A stretch of 64,000 nucleotides of DNA from Demequina globuliformis (GTDB lineage Bacteria; Actinomycetota; Actinomycetes; Actinomycetales; Demequinaceae): positions 851,999 to 915,998 of the forward strand of contig NZ_BBRG01000001.1 in NCBI RefSeq assembly GCF_000975155.1. Reading direction: 5' to 3'. Within the stretch, counting starts at the first letter, position 1. Each line of letters begins with the position of its first letter. Both the position numbers and the translations under genes were made by a program. Below the pieces are notes generated by a model. The model saw only the letters and a list, made by a program, of their open reading frames with translations, did not search any database and was not told the origin of the DNA. This document shows positions 23,379 through 47,340 of this stretch, piece after piece.

Positions 23379-23497
23379 CGACGCGCGCGTGCAGCCGTGG
23401 CGCCACCACATCGCGCCGCGGCTGCGCAGTCGCGTACCTCCCTGAGCTCACCGGCGTCGTTCCCCTCCCCACGCCCGCGCTATGCTGACCGGACACG

Positions 23498-23606
23498 ACA
23501 GGGGAGCGCTTCCCGATTGCCAGTGGCATCGAGAGTAAGAGCGCTGAGAGTGCGGAACCGCCGCAGACCCTCGAACCTGATCCGGGTGATACCGGCGTAG
23601 GGAGTC
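23498..23606 (+). ncRNA. TPP riboswitch (thi box)
   Basis: The leader contains the conserved elements in order: GGGGAGC at 23501, GCTGAGAG at 23543-23550, ACCCTCGAACCTGATCCGGG around 23567-23586, and GGCGTAGGGAG ending at 23604. It lies 40 bp before thiB. Between them CCTCC (23618-23622) could pair with the ribosome binding site GGAGG (23634-23638), a possible translation-off hairpin when thiamine pyrophosphate is bound. This sets regulation of thiBPQ. Confidence 0.95.
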
Positions 23607-23645
23607 GAGTCTCGTCCCCTCCTGATGCATGTGGGAGGAACCACT

Positions 23646-36895: not shown

Positions 36896-37657
36896 CTACC
36901 GCTGCAGCGACTCCACGAGCGCGCTTGCGTAGTGATGGGTCGCGGGGAGCGTTTCAATCCACACCCGCGGGGGCTGGCGCATGAGGTTGTCTACCCGCAT
37001 GGCCACCGCTCGTTCGGCGACGTGATCGCGAAGGGCCGCGATTCCCGCACCGAGTTGGTCATCGCGCCGGATCAGCACGGCGTACAGCCCTTCACCTAGA
37101 CGGGCCATCGGGTGGCCAGCGCCGTAGGCACCCCGGAGCGCCTCGCCAATCGCGGCGTTACGGGCCATCCGCTGCCATGGGTCGGAGTCGTCCACAGACA
37201 CGTCGACCACCACCAGCGCGTGCGTGCGGGAGACGTCGGTCTCACACCGCTCGGCGTTGCCATAAACCTCCGCGAGGCGCTGCACTAGGTACTCGGGGGT
37301 ACCCAGTCCGGACTCGGGGTCCGTCATGGTGGGTACCGATGCGAGATCGGGAGCGCCCTCCGTCCATCCCTGGCACAGCGCTCGGATGGAGCGAATCGGG
37401 GTGGTTTCAAAGCCGGCCGCGCGGAACAACAACGACATGTCGTCGATCGCCTCGGTGATACCGACGCCTGCAGTCGAGCGAGCCTGACCCAAGCGATACG
37501 CCGCGGGCGCGGTATCGAGACGGGCCTCCAGCGCCTCCACGAGCGCCTCCGCAGCAGGCGTGTACCAGTCACCGGGGCGCAGCCATACCTGCTGCACGCT
37601 CGCCGACTCCCACTCGCGCAGTAGCGCGGCGGTCGGCGTCCCGGTGGTCTCGGTCAT
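36896..37657 (-). CDS. Degenerate GGDEF-like domain protein
   Basis: A 253-residue soluble protein. Residues about 105-215 follow the diguanylate cyclase pattern: DPESGLGTPEYLVQRLAEVY parallels the DPLTGLxNR start, HALVVVDVS parallels the second strand, and MARLGEGLYAVLI stands where ARxGGDEFAVLL should be. Since the GGDEF loop reads GEGLY, catalysis is unlikely. The N-terminal 100 residues have no clear sensor domain. Possibly a c-di-GMP-independent regulator. Faces hspR tail to tail. Confidence 0.6.
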   Translation of the reverse strand: MTETTGTPTAALLREWESASVQQVWLRPGDWYTPAAEALVEALEARLDTAPAAYRLGQARSTAGVGITEAIDDMSLLFRAAGFETTPIRSIRALCQGWTEGAPDLASVPTMTDPESGLGTPEYLVQRLAEVYGNAERCETDVSRTHALVVVDVSVDDSDPWQRMARNAAIGEALRGAYGAGHPMARLGEGLYAVLIRRDDQLGAGIAALRDHVAERAVAMRVDNLMRQPPRVWIETLPATHHYASALVESLQR

Positions 37658-37829
37658 ACCCCATGAGAGGGCCCACCAATCCGGCTATGACGCGGATTCT
37701 CGAGAAATTTCTGGATGTCCAGTACGCGGCAAGTGTGAGGAATTCCCCTGGTCACCTTCTTGCTTTCCCCGGCACACACGGGGACCATGGTGGACAACGT
37801 ATGTCCAGAAGGCGGGAGGCCGGGGCAAC

Positions 37830-40800
37830 ATGAGTCCCGAGGGAATCGCAATGTGGACGGAAACGTCCAGCGATCCAGAGCTCATAGCCGGAGTGCGCGC
37901 AGGCGACCCGGCTGCCTTTGGCGTGCTTTACGAACGACACGTGGACGCCGCCCGCAAGGTCGCTCACCAATACACGAACAGCCACTCCGATGTCGACGAC
38001 GTGGTGTCGGAATCCTTCTCCCGCGTCCTGCGGGCACTGCAGCAAGGCGATGGCCCCGACCTCGCCTTCCGCGCCTACCTGTTCACCATTGTTCGGCGCA
38101 CCGGCATGGACATCATCAACAAGGGCATCCGCACCAAGCCTCGCGATGACATGTCGCCCTACGAATCCGCCATGGGGTATGAGGCACCGTCGGACGAGCC
38201 AGCCATGGCGGGCTTCGAGCACTCCATGGTGTCGGATGCGTTCACCTCTTTGCCCGAACGTTGGCAAGCGGTGCTGTGGTACACCGAGGTCGAGAAGAAG
38301 TCACCCAAGGACATTGCCCCGCTCCTGGGACTCAGCGCCAACGGTGTTGCTGCCCTCGCCTACCGCGCCCGAGAGGCACTCCGCCAGGCCTACCTGCAGC
38401 AGCACCTCGCTACGTCCGAGGACGTCAGCTGCATGGAGGCCAATTCGCAGTTGGGCGCCTATGTGCGTGGCGGCCTTGCCAAGCGCGAACACACCAAGAT
38501 CGACACCCACGTCCGCGACTGCCCCCGATGCACCGCGCTCGTCGTGGAGCTTCAAGACGTCAACCGCGGCATGCGGGCGATCATCGCCCCGCTCGTGCTC
38601 GGAACCCTGGGCCTGGGCGCTCTCGAGGGTGGACTGCCCATTGGCGGCGCGTTCGGCCCGCATGCGGCAGCAGGTGGCGCTGGCGGTGCCGGCGGTGCAG
38701 GCGCTGCAGGTGCCGGCGGTGCGGGGGCTGGCGGGGCCAGCGCGGGCATTCTCGGAACGTTTGGCGCGGCCGGGGCACTGGGCACGCTTGCTCACTTCGC
38801 GGTGCCCGCGACCGCGGTGGTGGGGGCGGCGGCGCTGGTACTGGGTGGCATCACGTTGTTCGCGAACGACCCCGTGGGGGATGGGGCCGATGCCGGCCGT
38901 GCCACGGAGCGCGTAGGCGACGTCACGCAGGGGTACGGAAAGAACCCCGGCCCCGGCGTTGCTGACGGGACCGAGACGGCGCCAGGCGAGAGCGCCGTCA
39001 GCGGTGTCAACCCGGACGCCACGACTGAGGATTCCGCCAACAGCTCGTCCGAGGACTTCGCCGGCGCCATCGGCACCGGCCGGGGCAGCAGCGACAGCCG
39101 CGCGAACGAACGAGTATGGGCTGCGAGCGACCGCGCTGCGGCCGACGCTGCGGCACGCGACCGTGCCGCGTCCGGCGACAGTGAGTCCGGTAGCGATGCG
39201 TCCGGTGGCACCGCGTCCGGAGGCGTAGGCAGTGGCACGGGTAACGGGTCCGCGTCCAATGGCGGCGGCTCCTCCACGGGCGGCTCGGGCTCATCCACAG
39301 GCAACGGCGGCTCATCGACAGGCGGTTCGACTGGCAGCGGTGGAAGCGGCGGCACTGGTGGCAGCGGAAGCACCGGTGGCAGCGGCGGTGCCGGTGCCGG
39401 CAGCGGAGCCGGCGGTTCCACCGATTCCGGCGGGAGCACTGACCCCGTTGATCCCCCCAGTCCAATCGATCCGACGGACCCTGTCGACCCCACCGATCCT
39501 GTCGACCCTACGGATCCGGTCGATCCCACGGACCCCGACCCGGACAGCACCGTCGACCCAACCGAGCCGATCCCTCCCCCGGCAGGTTCCCTCCGCATCG
39601 GCCGGTCGAGCCTGCAGTTCCTCGAAATTTCGCGCACCGACCCCGCCGTCGACATGAGCGTCAGCAACGCGGCGGCCGTCGGCATTGACGACGTCACGGC
39701 GACCATCACCTTGCCAGAGGGCCTCACGTTCGCCATGCCCGGCTCCACCGGCGGCGCACAAGCAAGTGGAGCGGTCGCGCTGGAGCGCTACGTCGCCGCC
39801 ACCACTGACACCACCTTTGCGGTCGGGGACTGGGACTGTGGCCTGTCCGCAGATTCCGCGGTCCTGTCGTGCGAACTCGTCCAGCTGGGCGCCGGGACGG
39901 ACACCACGTTGGACCTCGGAATCTCCATCGATGCTGACGAACTAGCGGCGGACGCGGCCACGGTCTTTGATGTGAGCGCCGGCGCCCTCAGCGACACCTA
40001 CTCCTTGCCCACCGGCCTGCGTGAGACCGATGACGATCTCGAGGACGGCTTCGAGGACCAGGGCGGTTTGGGCGTGGCGCAGTTTGGTGCGCCCGTGCTG
40101 GGATGCGACGTGTCTGCCACTCGCTGCCAGTCGGTGATGGGAACGCACGCCAACCCCAACGGGGTCCTATCCCTGAGCGGCACGAACAACAACGACCACA
40201 CCATGGTGGAGCTGCGTGACGAGGACGGCCAACGCAACGGCGGCACCACGACCGTGACGCTTCCGGAGGGGGCGGTGGTCACGCACGCGTCGCTCGAATG
40301 GTCGGCCAACCGCTCCACCCCGACCGAGTCGTGGCGCAGCCCAGATGTGTGGTCAGGTGACCTCACCGCCGCGTCGCTACGCACTCCCGGCGGCGAGTTC
40401 CAATCCGTGGCTGGCGTTGACCTCGAAGTATTCACGCGCGACAAGCGCGAGTACTACCTGGCGCGCGCAGACGTGACACATCTGGTTCAAGCTGGGGGCG
40501 AGGGCGAATACTCTCTCGAGGACATCGCGACGTCCGCCACCCGGTTCGACACTGACCGCACCTACTACGGCGGCTTCACCCTGACCGTGGTCTACGAGGA
40601 CCCCGCCCTACCGGCCGCGACGTCAGTCAAGCTGCTGGAGGGACCGCACTGGGTGTCCAGTTCCGCACCCGCGACGCGAGCCTTCGACACTGAGGCCGAC
40701 GCTACGGTCACGTTGTCGTGGACGGCGTTCGAGACGGACCTCGGCAACTCGGGCGACTACGCGGCGGTGGACGGAACGAAGGTCCGCCCGCAACGCGGCA

Positions 40801-40991
40801 ACACGCTCGGCTCAGCGACCAACGCCGGCGACTCGTGGGCAAACGGCTCAGTATTCGCGAACACCTTGGGAACCGACGCGAAGGGCTTCGCCCCCGTCGA
40901 CGTCGACGCAGGACGCCACCAGATCACCGTGGCGACCAGCGGGGACAACTTCTTTGTGGGAACGTTCGCGGTGACGATCGCCCACGACTGA
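37830..40991 (+). CDS. ECF sigma factor fused to zinc-finger anti-sigma, membrane segment and large extracytoplasmic region
   Basis: A 1053-residue protein. Residues 10-190 are an ECF sigma factor: region 2 (DPAAFGVLYERHVDAARKVA, DVDDVVSESFSRVLRAL) and region 4 (VEKKSPKDIAPLLGLSANGV). A zinc-finger of anti-sigma type follows at about 215-240 (HTKIDTHVRDCPRC). Hydrophobic stretches lie near 249-270 and 310-343. The rest is predicted outside: Gly/Ser-rich linker (about 450-533), DPTDPV repeats (547-569), a DUF11-like beta domain (about 604-720) and a final domain of about 285 residues. It resembles actinobacterial ECF groups with long C-terminal extensions. Start at 37830 has GGGAGG upstream; ATG at 37851 is an alternative. 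Confidence 0.85.
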   Translation: MSPEGIAMWTETSSDPELIAGVRAGDPAAFGVLYERHVDAARKVAHQYTNSHSDVDDVVSESFSRVLRALQQGDGPDLAFRAYLFTIVRRTGMDIINKGIRTKPRDDMSPYESAMGYEAPSDEPAMAGFEHSMVSDAFTSLPERWQAVLWYTEVEKKSPKDIAPLLGLSANGVAALAYRAREALRQAYLQQHLATSEDVSCMEANSQLGAYVRGGLAKREHTKIDTHVRDCPRCTALVVELQDVNRGMRAIIAPLVLGTLGLGALEGGLPIGGAFGPHAAAGGAGGAGGAGAAGAGGAGAGGASAGILGTFGAAGALGTLAHFAVPATAVVGAAALVLGGITLFANDPVGDGADAGRATERVGDVTQGYGKNPGPGVADGTETAPGESAVSGVNPDATTEDSANSSSEDFAGAIGTGRGSSDSRANERVWAASDRAAADAAARDRAASGDSESGSDASGGTASGGVGSGTGNGSASNGGGSSTGGSGSSTGNGGSSTGGSTGSGGSGGTGGSGSTGGSGGAGAGSGAGGSTDSGGSTDPVDPPSPIDPTDPVDPTDPVDPTDPVDPTDPDPDSTVDPTEPIPPPAGSLRIGRSSLQFLEISRTDPAVDMSVSNAAAVGIDDVTATITLPEGLTFAMPGSTGGAQASGAVALERYVAATTDTTFAVGDWDCGLSADSAVLSCELVQLGAGTDTTLDLGISIDADELAADAATVFDVSAGALSDTYSLPTGLRETDDDLEDGFEDQGGLGVAQFGAPVLGCDVSATRCQSVMGTHANPNGVLSLSGTNNNDHTMVELRDEDGQRNGGTTTVTLPEGAVVTHASLEWSANRSTPTESWRSPDVWSGDLTAASLRTPGGEFQSVAGVDLEVFTRDKREYYLARADVTHLVQAGGEGEYSLEDIATSATRFDTDRTYYGGFTLTVVYEDPALPAATSVKLLEGPHWVSSSAPATRAFDTEADATVTLSWTAFETDLGNSGDYAAVDGTKVRPQRGNTLGSATNAGDSWANGSVFANTLGTDAKGFAPVDVDAGRHQITVATSGDNFFVGTFAVTIAHD
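39468..39536 (+). repeat. 18-bp coding tandem repeat (DPTDPV)
   Basis: Nearly four units of 18 bp, each encoding Asp-Pro-Thr-Asp-Pro-Val, within the extracytoplasmic stalk of the fused sigma factor. Synonymous differences between units (GATCCG, GACCCC, GACCCT) show that the protein repeat is kept. Confidence 0.85.
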
Positions 40992-43170: not shown

Positions 43171-44157
43171 CTACTTCTTGGTGGCCTGCGCGTTGACCTC
43201 GTATGAGGTGTTGGTGGCCTCGAAGAAGTTCACCAACTGCAAGGTGTCGTTGGCGGTCGCCATCCACTTTGCGGGGTTGGAGACGTTGTAGTGAGCCTCG
43301 AAGCCCAGCTCCTCGAGACGACGGTCCGCGAGGTACTTGACGTACTGGTTCACGTACTCGGCGTTGAGGCCCAGGATGCCCTTAGGCAGCAGGTCGTGGT
43401 TGTAACGCTCTTCCATTTCCACGGCGCCCAGGATCATCTGGCGAATCTCCTCCGCGAACTCGGGGTCCTGGAGGTCCTCGTTCTCTTCAAGCACCGTGAG
43501 AATGAGGTTGATGCCGAACTGCAGGTGGAGCGACTCGTCGCGAATCACCCAGTCCATGAGTGAGCCGAAGTTGCGCAGCAGGTTTCGCTGACGGAACGAC
43601 AGCGCGACCATGAAGCCGGAGTAGAACCAGATGCCTTCGAGGATGACGTTGTAGGCAACCAGGTTGCGGACAAAGTCCTTCTTGCCCTCGGTGGTGGAGA
43701 TGTCGAGGGTCTCTTCCGTCATGCGGCGGATGAACTTGACCTCGAACTCTTCCTTGGCCGCCATGGACGGCACGGTGACGTGCGACTCGTACGCGGCATC
43801 GCGATCCAGCGGGAACGTCTCGAGGACGTACTCGAAGGACATGCAGTGGTTGGCCTCTTCCCACATCTGCTTCGCGAGGTACAGGTGGCACTCGGGAGCG
43901 TTGATGTAGGGATACACGCCAAAGGCCAGGGCCTTGTTGACGAGCAACTCGTTGGGGTTGAAGTAAGACATCAGGAAGGTGACGGCGTGCTTTTCCTCGT
44001 CCGTCATTTTCTTGAAGTCCGCCAGGTCCTCACCGAGCTGAATCTCGTTGGGGAACCACGTGTTGGCGACAGCCTGGTTGTAGAGGTCGTACGCCCAGGG
44101 GTACGTGATGGGCTTGAGGAGCAGTCCGTCCTGGATGCCGGTACCGAGAATTGCCAT
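43171..44157 (-). CDS. nrdB: Ribonucleotide reductase beta subunit, predicted class Ic
   Basis: A 328-residue ferritin-like R2 protein that makes the radical for NrdA. Metal ligands by spacing from E. coli NrdB: Glu70 (NPNELL), Glu101 and His104 (WEEANHCMSF), Glu174 (ILEGIW), Glu208 and His211 (RDESLHLQ). The residue where the radical Tyr122 of E. coli falls (E-x2-H-x3-Y) is Phe108, and the first ligand is Glu rather than Asp. Both are marks of the Chlamydia-type class Ic enzyme that uses a Mn/Fe centre. It lies 33 bp after nrdA on the same strand and ends at a strong terminator. Confidence 0.93.
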   Translation of the reverse strand: MAILGTGIQDGLLLKPITYPWAYDLYNQAVANTWFPNEIQLGEDLADFKKMTDEEKHAVTFLMSYFNPNELLVNKALAFGVYPYINAPECHLYLAKQMWEEANHCMSFEYVLETFPLDRDAAYESHVTVPSMAAKEEFEVKFIRRMTEETLDISTTEGKKDFVRNLVAYNVILEGIWFYSGFMVALSFRQRNLLRNFGSLMDWVIRDESLHLQFGINLILTVLEENEDLQDPEFAEEIRQMILGAVEMEERYNHDLLPKGILGLNAEYVNQYVKYLADRRLEELGFEAHYNVSNPAKWMATANDTLQLVNFFEATNTSYEVNAQATKK

Positions 44158-44190: not shown

Positions 44191-47130
44191 CTACTGGCAG
44201 GACTCACACTGGAGGGCTTCCATCGGGTCCACGGGGCAGGCGACGCCGTCCACCATCTCCGTGTCACCGATGACGCCCGTGGCCTGCGCCAGGTTCAACA
44301 CCGGCGCTCCTGTGGGGACAGACTGCGCCTCAAGGGCGTCAGCCGTGGGCTCGGGCTGAGTCTCCGGCAGAGACGTCGGCGGAACCTGGGGCTGCTCGGC
44401 CGGCGCGCTGGCAAGGTCCTGCGCGCCCTCCGAAGGCTGGACTGCACTGGCGGTCGGCACTGCAGATGCGGTCGCCGTGGCCTGCGCTGCGGGTGCAGCG
44501 ACAGCGCCGAAGCCCTTGCGAGCGGGCGCGGCGGCGGGAGCGGCCGCCTGCGCAGCAGGAGCCTCCACCGCGGATTCCGCGACGGGCGCGGACTCGGCAG
44601 TAGCCACCGGGGCGGCGGCCTTCGCAGCGCCAAAGCCCTTGCGGGCGCCGAAGCCACGGCGCGAGGGTCCACCGGTGGCTCCGCCAGAGGCGGCACCGGA
44701 GGCCTTGTTGAGCTTCTCCGTCTTGTTCACGCGTACCGTCGACTGCTCGGCCGTGTGGCGGGGCTTCATGTGCAGGTAGTACGTGGTCTTCACGCCGCGC
44801 TCCCACGCTGCCGTGTAGAGGTCCATCATGTTGTCCACGTCGCGGTCGGCGAGGTAGATGTTGCGGCTGATGGCCTGGTCGATCCACTTCTGCGCACGTG
44901 CCGCCACCTCAATGAAGGAGTACGGCGAGAGCTGGAAGGACGTCTTGTAGACCTCCTGCAGGTGGGCAGGGACGTCCTCCAACTGCGACAGGTCGCCCTG
45001 TGCCTCGAGGAGCTGGTCGCGGGTGTCTTCCCACAGGCCCAGTTCCTGCAGGTCGCGGACCAGGTTGCGGTTGACCTCGAGGAACTTACCCGAGGAGGTG
45101 GCACGCGAGAAGATCTGCGAGAACTGCGGGTCGAACCCGGGAGTCGTGCCGGCGACGAGGCCGATCGACGCGGTCGGCGCCACGGCCATCAGCGTGGCAT
45201 TGCGGATGCCGCCCTTGACCTTGGCGCGCAGCATGTCCCAGTCCTGACGCGTGGTGCGGTTGACCTGGATCTTCACGCCGCGGTCTTCCTCGGTCGTGGC
45301 GATGGTGTCGAACGGCACCTTGCCCTGCGACCAGCCGGAGCCCTCGAAGTTCGAGTAGGAGCCGCGCTCACGAGCGAGGTCAGCGGAGGCGTCGATCGCG
45401 TGGAAGGACACGAACTCCATGATCTCGTCGATGAGGTCGTAGGACTCCTCCGACTCGTACGCGAGGCCCAGACGCTCGGTGAGGTCCGTGAAGCCCATGA
45501 CTCCCAGGCCCACCGCGCGGTTCTCACGGTTGGCGAACTCGGACTCGGGCACCGAGGACAGCGTGATGTCCACCAGGTTGTCGAGCTGACGCACGGCGAG
45601 GCGTACCGACTTCTCCATGCGGTCCCAGTCCAGCTTGCCGTCGACCAGGTGCGTCGACAAGTTGACCGACGCGAGGTTGCACACCGCGATGTTTTCGCGG
45701 TCCTGCGGCAGGCAGATCTCGGTGCACAGGTTGGACAGGTGGATGGTGCCGGTGTTGGTGTTCAGGGCACGGTTGTTGATCGTGTCCTTCCAGGTCAACC
45801 AGGGGTGCGACGTGGTCTGCAGCATGATGAGGATCGACTTGTACTGCTCGCGAGCCTTCATCTTCTTGAAGGAGCGCATCTTGCCTGCCTCAGCGAGGGC
45901 AACGTACTCCGCGTAGCGGGCGGAGAACTCCGAGCCGGTCAGCTCGACCAGGTCAGGGGCCTCAGCGGGGTCGAACAGGTACCAGTCCGCGTTGGCCTGT
46001 ACGCGCTTCATGAACTCATCGGAGATCCACACTGCGGTGTTGGCGGTACGGGTACGACGGTAGGGGTCACCGGAGTTCTGACGCAGGTCGAGGAACTGCG
46101 CGAAGTCCATGTGCCAGTTCTCCATGTAGAAGCACAGGGCGCCGAACTTCTTGCCACCGCGCGACACGGCGCGAAGCGTCGAGTCGATGGTGTGCATGAA
46201 CGGGATGGGGCCGGTCGAGGTCGTGTTGTTCGACTTGATCGGCGAACCCTCGGAACGCAACTTGGTGACGGACAGGCCAATACCGCCGGTGCCCTTCGTC
46301 AGCCACATGACGTCGCGCACGGACTTGGCAATGTGCTCGATGTCGTCTTCCATCTGCATGACGAAGCAGTTGGACAGCTGCGGGTACGAGGTACCTGCGT
46401 TGACGAGCGTCGATCCAGCGGGGAGGTAGTCCAGGCGCGAGATCTTCTCGTAGAAGCTGATCGCGGCCTCGGTGGGGTTCGCCTCGTTGAGCGACAGGCC
46501 CATCGACACGCGCATCCAGAAGTACTGCGGGACCTCAAGTGACTTACCGTGGCGGTCGGTGATCATGTAGCGGTTGCGCATGGTCACGGTGCCGATGTAC
46601 TTCAGCAGGTCATCCCGCTCGTGGTCCAGCGCTGCGGCCAGGGCGTCGAGGTCAAAGAGGGTCTCGAGGCGCTTGTCGAGGAGTCCTTCCTCGACTGCGT
46701 CGCGGACGTAGCCCGGGAAGCGGGCCTGGTGCAGGAGTGCGAGCTCGAGGTTGGTCTCGTACCCGCCGAGGACGCGCTTGTAAATCACCTTGCGCAGCAG
46801 ACGTGCCGCGATGACATCGAAGTCGGGGTCGTCCTTCACGTTCTGGATCGCGACGCCAATCGCCGCCTCATCCAGCTGCTCCGTGGTGATGCCGTCAAAG
46901 AGCGTGATGGCAAGTTCGGACGCGACCTGCGTGACCTTCGAGATCTGGTCGTCGAGGCCTTCCGCGGCGCGCTCGATCGCCATGTTGATGCGGTCAGCGT
47001 TGTACGGCTCACGGGTGCCGTCGCGCTTGGTGACGTGGATGCCGGTGCGGGCCGGGTTTGCCTCAGCGGCTGCCTCAGCGACTGCGTCGCCGTTGACGCT
47101 GTCCTGGGCGGTGTTTTCGGTGATCGTCAC
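44191..47130 (-). CDS. nrdA: Ribonucleotide reductase alpha subunit with ATP-cone and long disordered tail
   Basis: A 979-residue class I R1. The ATP-cone (activity site) spans residues 30-120 (IHVTKRDGTREPYNADRI). Catalytic core: redox Cys in LSNCFVMQ, the radical Cys in LSNLCTEICLP with neighbouring Asn and Glu, second redox Cys in IAVCNLASVNL, and the tyrosine pair of the radical path in TTYYLHMKPRHTAEQ. After residue 820 a tail of about 150 Ala/Pro-rich residues with repeated RKGFGA units leads to the C-terminal CESC redox pair. GTG at 47130 follows GAGGGGAG. The tail is longer than is usual for NrdA. Confidence 0.95.
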   Translation of the reverse strand: MTITENTAQDSVNGDAVAEAAAEANPARTGIHVTKRDGTREPYNADRINMAIERAAEGLDDQISKVTQVASELAITLFDGITTEQLDEAAIGVAIQNVKDDPDFDVIAARLLRKVIYKRVLGGYETNLELALLHQARFPGYVRDAVEEGLLDKRLETLFDLDALAAALDHERDDLLKYIGTVTMRNRYMITDRHGKSLEVPQYFWMRVSMGLSLNEANPTEAAISFYEKISRLDYLPAGSTLVNAGTSYPQLSNCFVMQMEDDIEHIAKSVRDVMWLTKGTGGIGLSVTKLRSEGSPIKSNNTTSTGPIPFMHTIDSTLRAVSRGGKKFGALCFYMENWHMDFAQFLDLRQNSGDPYRRTRTANTAVWISDEFMKRVQANADWYLFDPAEAPDLVELTGSEFSARYAEYVALAEAGKMRSFKKMKAREQYKSILIMLQTTSHPWLTWKDTINNRALNTNTGTIHLSNLCTEICLPQDRENIAVCNLASVNLSTHLVDGKLDWDRMEKSVRLAVRQLDNLVDITLSSVPESEFANRENRAVGLGVMGFTDLTERLGLAYESEESYDLIDEIMEFVSFHAIDASADLARERGSYSNFEGSGWSQGKVPFDTIATTEEDRGVKIQVNRTTRQDWDMLRAKVKGGIRNATLMAVAPTASIGLVAGTTPGFDPQFSQIFSRATSSGKFLEVNRNLVRDLQELGLWEDTRDQLLEAQGDLSQLEDVPAHLQEVYKTSFQLSPYSFIEVAARAQKWIDQAISRNIYLADRDVDNMMDLYTAAWERGVKTTYYLHMKPRHTAEQSTVRVNKTEKLNKASGAASGGATGGPSRRGFGARKGFGAAKAAAPVATAESAPVAESAVEAPAAQAAAPAAAPARKGFGAVAAPAAQATATASAVPTASAVQPSEGAQDLASAPAEQPQVPPTSLPETQPEPTADALEAQSVPTGAPVLNLAQATGVIGDTEMVDGVACPVDPMEALQCESCQ

Positions 47131-47283
47131 GATTCTCCCCTCGCGAGTGAGCGATGCTGGTGGCCCCATGAAGGGCCGTGATACACGGACTTGAAAGTGG
47201 CGCTGGGGCCTGTGCGACGAGGCCCTTGTAGGGCGGCTGTCACGAGCGCGAAGCGTGCTTTGACTCTAACGCGAATTACACCG

Positions 47284-47340
47284 GTGTGCAACAAGATATG
47301 GGGGTCAAAACCGCTAACCATCCCTAGATGTTGTGGTTGT
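47284..47340 (-). promoter_or_regulatory. Possible NrdR boxes upstream of nrdA
   Basis: Two half-conserved sites, ACAAGATATGG (47291-47301) and TAGATGTTGTGG (47325-47336), resemble parts of the NrdR consensus (ACA..ATAT..TGT type) and are about three helical turns apart, the spacing usual for NrdR pairs. Neither is a full palindrome, so this is tentative. Confidence 0.35.

Follow-up and report, generated by a model that had tools for sequence, protein, structure and literature searches.

The nrdB gene of Demequina globuliformis, located on the minus strand at 43171..44157 of a 64,000-nucleotide stretch of contig NZ_BBRG01000001.1 (this whole stretch is termed the window), very probably codes for a class Ic-type radical-generating subunit, part of the one aerobic ribonucleotide reductase found in the genome. 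The gene starts with ATG and encodes a protein of 328 amino acids, the R2 subunit of a class I ribonucleotide reductase, and this carries the residue signature of class Ic, with a glutamate (Glu70) as the first metal ligand and a phenylalanine (Phe108) at the position of the radical tyrosine. Our best inference from these residues is a Mn(IV)/Fe(III) cofactor with no tyrosyl radical.

Metal ligands and radical-transfer residues of NrdB

NrdB matches PF00268, and scores 400 bits with the NCBIfam model NF007186 (NrdB; cut-off 237). Its top PDB matches, both by sequence and by fold, are class Ic R2 structures from Chlamydia trachomatis. The phmmer alignment with 1syy is free of gaps over query residues 50–322, with all the ligands and F108 in register. 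All six metal ligands are retained. Starting from the N terminus (all codons lie on the minus strand) these are Glu70 (43948..43950; Chlamydia Glu89, and aspartate in classes Ia and Ib), Glu101 (43855..43857; Glu120), His104 (43846..43848; His123), Glu174 (43636..43638; Glu193), Glu208 (43534..43536; Glu227) and His211 (43525..43527; His230). Phe108 (43834..43836) corresponds to Chlamydia Phe127. The distance from E101 to E174 is 73, the same as that from E120 to E193 in Chlamydia. The initial annotation had placed a phenylalanine where the radical tyrosine would be and a glutamate ligand 31 residues before Glu101, with ligand and motif spacings of 31, 3, 7, 34 and 3, and had assigned the protein to class Ic by its residues. 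Phe108 is read directly from the sequence and aligned to F127, Glu70 is aligned to E89 and the spacings are exactly as given; the best matches, with ligands and relay in register, agree with the class. The alignment was checked for a tyrosine falling at the radical position, and none did.

The relay residues Trp34, Asp207 and Tyr319 are intact, corresponding to W51, D226 and Y338 of Chlamydia. Tyr319 (43201..43203, minus strand) is the C-terminal radical-transfer tyrosine; it lies within the low-confidence tail of the structural model and is invariant across both alignments. The position of Chlamydia Tyr222 is taken by Trp203 (43549..43551, minus strand), which is tryptophan in every clade member that was read. 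In a 40-row panel of R2 sequences the 22 rows with Glu as first ligand have Phe (20) or Leu (2) at the radical position, and all 18 rows with Asp have Tyr. At position 203 the seven rows of the clade that includes the window have Trp and the other 15 Glu rows have Tyr. Trp is also found there in 11 of the 18 Asp/Tyr rows, and is thus not bound to the Glu/Phe state.

Three other classes of R2 were considered and rejected. Class Ia would require Tyr in place of Phe108 and, usually, Asp in place of Glu70. Class Ib (NrdF) is excluded by Phe108, by NrdI not being found in the genome and by a score of 86 bits with TIGR04171 (cut-off 355). In class Ie the metal-binding glutamate residues are lost, while here all six ligands are present.

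Reductase content of the genome and distribution of the signature

The order on the minus strand is nrdA, 33 bases and then nrdB. The nrdA gene (44191..47169) encodes the R1 catalytic subunit of 992 amino acids (PF02867, PF00317 and PF03477), with one ATP cone, an all-alpha domain, a barrel domain and a CxxC motif at the C-terminal end. It scores 1496 bits with NCBIfam NF005101 (cut-off 988), and its best PDB match is 5im3. The D. globuliformis genome (2.62 Mb in 8 contigs) contains one R2, one R1/NrdJ-type barrel, one NrdD and one NrdR, and the search of the genome gave no second R2 and no further NrdJ-type barrel. NrdAB is therefore the only aerobic reductase found.

These data bear on whether NrdB might not be a reductase subunit at all but an oxidase, either of the R2-like ligand-binding kind (R2lox) or of some other ferritin-like type. 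R2lox also has a Mn/Fe site, and five NCBIfam R2lox models match NrdB, the best at 77.5 bits. All five matches are nevertheless below their cut-offs whereas that for NF007186 is well above, so that this candidate was rejected; with nrdA only 33 bases upstream, the radical-transfer tyrosine constant across the two alignments and no other R2 found in the genome, we regard such an oxidase as extremely improbable.

In 37 genomes of the genus (including that of the window) the Ic-type gene is present in 32. It occurs alone in 23, together with class Ib in nine, and the remaining five have class Ib alone; part of this typing comes from the residues as read and the remainder from the PF00268 scores, with two distinct groups of values (≥317 or ≤257 bits). 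NrdI is present in exactly the 14 genomes with class Ib. Within a single genus class Ib (NrdF and NrdI) and the Ic type can thus be seen to coexist or to substitute for each other (G000–G036), and Demequina species with class Ib, class Ic or both provide a natural comparison set in close relatives.

A search for relatives in genome_contigs gave 563 confirmed loci, from which the best 80 were kept, so that near kin are favoured. All 80 have E70, F108 and W203. The conservation of E70 and F108 in this set argues that the pair is not due to chance. The closest named loci are those of D. sediminicola (98%) and D. flava (97%). By label the 80 comprise 30 Microbacteriaceae, 26 Demequinaceae, 8 Cellulomonadaceae, 12 other Actinomycetota, 3 Saccharibacteria and a metagenome-assembled genome (MAG) of Acidobacteria. 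Since near relatives have it, both in these 80 loci and in 32 of the 37 genomes of the genus, the signature is no rarity in an actinobacterium.

An R2 that has lost its tyrosine could in principle be degraded and non-catalytic, the aerobic work being done by another enzyme; it is general knowledge that loss of the tyrosine alone inactivates a class Ia R2. Yet the genome search found neither another R2 nor an NrdJ-type barrel that might take over, the nrdB frame is open and free of stops, the same residues recur in all 80 loci and the gene is the sole R2 in 23 of the 37 genomes, all of which makes a degraded subunit very unlikely.

The signature is not general in the order. An R2 was found in 15 of 22 same-order genomes from outside the genus, and just one of the 22 (G058, 84% identity) has the window type. 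The R2 of G043 combines Glu/Phe with a Tyr at 203. Asp/Tyr is found in G052 and in those remaining same-order R2s read as NrdF; the alignment of a second R2 in G042 (L121) is too weak for typing. An even sample of 198 genomes across the phylum gave matches with E 1e-20 or better in 24, including that of the window. No other window-type R2 was found in these 198, where the nearest R2s, at 45% identity, belong to three genomes, all from the family f59.

Thirty-three loci on predicted viral contigs (L160–L192) are 65–82% identical to NrdB. Both E70 and F108 are present in all 32 that cover the two positions, and W203 in all 29 that cover it. A neighbouring nrdA is seen on three of the 33 contigs, many of these stretches being truncated, and L170 carries a deoxycytidine monophosphate deaminase gene and endolysin-like genes besides the R2. 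Three Saccharibacteria MAG contigs (L071, L079 and L080; G+C 45–49%) encode an NrdB that is 86–87% identical and nested in the actinobacterial clade, which suggests transfer from actinobacteria. On L079 there is an nrdA upstream, broken by a run of unread bases. The NrdB of the MAG labelled Acidobacteria (L053; G+C 70%) groups with Amnibacterium; this MAG may be mislabelled, or the contig may come from contamination.

Phylogeny and the nature of the cofactor

Seven redundant rows were excluded before the first tree was calculated. Rows with very long branches were also dropped, these being L148 and L159 from all three sets, and L158 and three NrdF rows from the 36-row set. The deep branches are long, and were flagged as such by the tree program. 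In the 36-row tree the window clade (seven rows, support 100/98) is placed apart from the Chlamydia clade.

Several points weigh against the assignment of NrdB to class Ic with the Mn/Fe cofactor. NrdB is only ∼35% identical to Chlamydia NrdB and appears to belong to a separate clade; joining the window and Chlamydia clades into one is rejected by the approximately unbiased (AU) test, with p = 0.00058 for the 36-row set and p = 1.3e-5 on removal of the trait columns (here and below the p values are uncorrected, several tests were made and the groups were defined by a trait seen beforehand). The cofactor is thus assigned by the identity of the residues and not by close kinship. Chlamydia Tyr222, which carries the extra electron during activation and is needed there, is not retained. 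The search of the genome for an Nramp-type Mn importer gave none, and did not extend to ATP-binding cassette (ABC)-type or other Mn uptake systems. The absence of NrdI says little alone, because NrdI is usually located near NrdF and NrdF is missing here.

The separation of the clades and the replacement of Tyr222 by Trp203 could also be explained if the protein, as a tyrosine-free R2, had evolved separately from that of Chlamydia and used a different cofactor, for instance Fe(III)/Fe(IV) or two Mn ions in a high-valent state. Class Id is the label for the NrdB of Leeuwenhoekiella blandensis. A Mn(III)Mn(IV) pair has been described for that protein and suggested to be a new cofactor (PMC5794259). 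We consider a cofactor of this kind improbable for D. globuliformis, where the residues point to Mn(IV)/Fe(III).

If NrdB is of class Ic its site would load one Mn and one Fe ion, without a flavodoxin helper. Reaction with O2 or H2O2 would then generate Mn(IV)/Fe(IV), which would undergo one-electron reduction to Mn(IV)/Fe(III) via surface residues, perhaps with Trp203 standing in for Chlamydia Tyr222. The exchange of Tyr222 for Trp203 is likely to be a conservative swap, since tryptophan is also able to carry such an electron. The Mn(IV)/Fe(III) centre would reversibly oxidize the active-site cysteine of NrdA across the Trp–Tyr relay, and nucleotide reduction would start.

The trees bear on the origin of the Glu/Phe state. 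A single clade comprising the window clade, the Chlamydia clade and the three f59 rows is not rejected (p = 0.166), and neither is one of the window clade with f59 (p = 0.474), a grouping that is not seen in the 36-row tree. Uniting all the Glu rows is not rejected for the set of 36 rows, which lacks class Ib (p = 0.234), nor when the class Ib rows and L158 are added (p = 0.105); for the latter set without the two Glu/Leu rows the common Glu clade has p = 0.029, and using another alignment with columns 70, 108 and 203 removed the clade of all Glu rows is weakly rejected (p = 0.027). The Glu/Asp state requires two, three or four changes on the three trees. A review (PMC4390871) describes the NrdBs lacking the tyrosine as one tight cluster, and ties their origin to immune-derived nitric oxide. 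The present trees lean, though not decisively, against such a single cluster. We suggest only tentatively, as somewhat less than an even chance, that the class Ic state arose more than once, and that the clade of Demequina, Microbacteriaceae, Cellulomonadaceae, Saccharibacteria and phage is an independent tyrosine-free lineage in which the activating electron would pass via Trp203 and not Tyr222. Were this so it would contradict the single tight cluster of the review.

If the class Ic assignment is correct, a tyrosine-free reductase would be the aerobic enzyme of DNA-precursor synthesis for many Demequinaceae, Microbacteriaceae and Cellulomonadaceae, i.e. in at least three actinobacterial families, with the same type of enzyme also in some Saccharibacteria and predicted viruses. 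Many of the carriers have names that point to free-living species, so that escape from nitric oxide of the host, which has been proposed in print as the reason for class Ic, would then probably not explain everything.

Neighbouring features and comparison with known systems

Upstream of nrdA on the minus strand there are two similar short repeats (47286..47337, with cores at 47333 and 47301). They are 32 bases apart and lie 130–165 bases before the nrdA start codon, and could be an NrdR-box-like putative regulatory site; an nrdR gene is present in the genome. A strict NrdR-box consensus has no match in the window with up to three mismatches allowed, and no Rfam family is above threshold near nrdA. 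A loose pattern, spotted by eye and written from the window's own sequence, was tried on 34 upstream regions, where L013 and L021 yielded no nrdA. At least one match was found in 26 of 26 Demequina-type regions (that of the window included) and both repeats in 11 of these, 31 or 32 bases apart; six regions from outside the Demequina group gave at least one match in four and both in none. As the pattern was derived from the window itself, this conservation is no independent test of NrdR. Elsewhere in the window are a thiamine pyrophosphate (TPP) riboswitch (23490–23620, plus strand; 65.4 bits) and an open frame of 1143 codons (37560–40991, plus strand) with sigma-70 regions 2 and 4, a putative zinc finger (zf-HC2) and then a long region rich in Gly, Ser, Asp and Pro.

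Class Ic has been known since 2004, as the references in PMC4390871 show. PMC2795772 mentions neither class Ic nor actinobacteria, Tropheryma or phenylalanine. Compared with E. coli NrdB, Glu70 and Phe108 replace Asp84 and the radical Tyr122, and the E101–E174 distance is 16 shorter than that of E115–E204 (E. coli numbering). The class Ib NrdF of other Demequina genomes belongs to the same family (PF00268) and does the same job. Unlike the window NrdB it has Asp, Tyr and, at 203, Leu in the rows read, and the identity is just 23–28%. The R2s of the Nonomuraea and Georgenia kind are 34–38% identical and also have Trp at 203, but their first ligand is Asp and their radical site holds Tyr, which makes them class Ia-like. 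The R2 of PDB 6y2n, which we take to be that of the actinobacterium Saccharopolyspora erythraea, has the same Glu/Phe pair with Tyr at the 203 position; it groups with Phyllobacterium and two same-phylum rows, outside the window clade. Chlamydia trachomatis NrdB (1syy, 4d8f, 4d8g, 4m1h and 4m1i; 2ani is the F127Y mutant) shares the fold, the six ligands including the first Glu, and the Phe at the radical position, while its Tyr222, Thr124 and Leu128 are replaced by Trp203, Cys105 and Glu109 in the Demequina protein.
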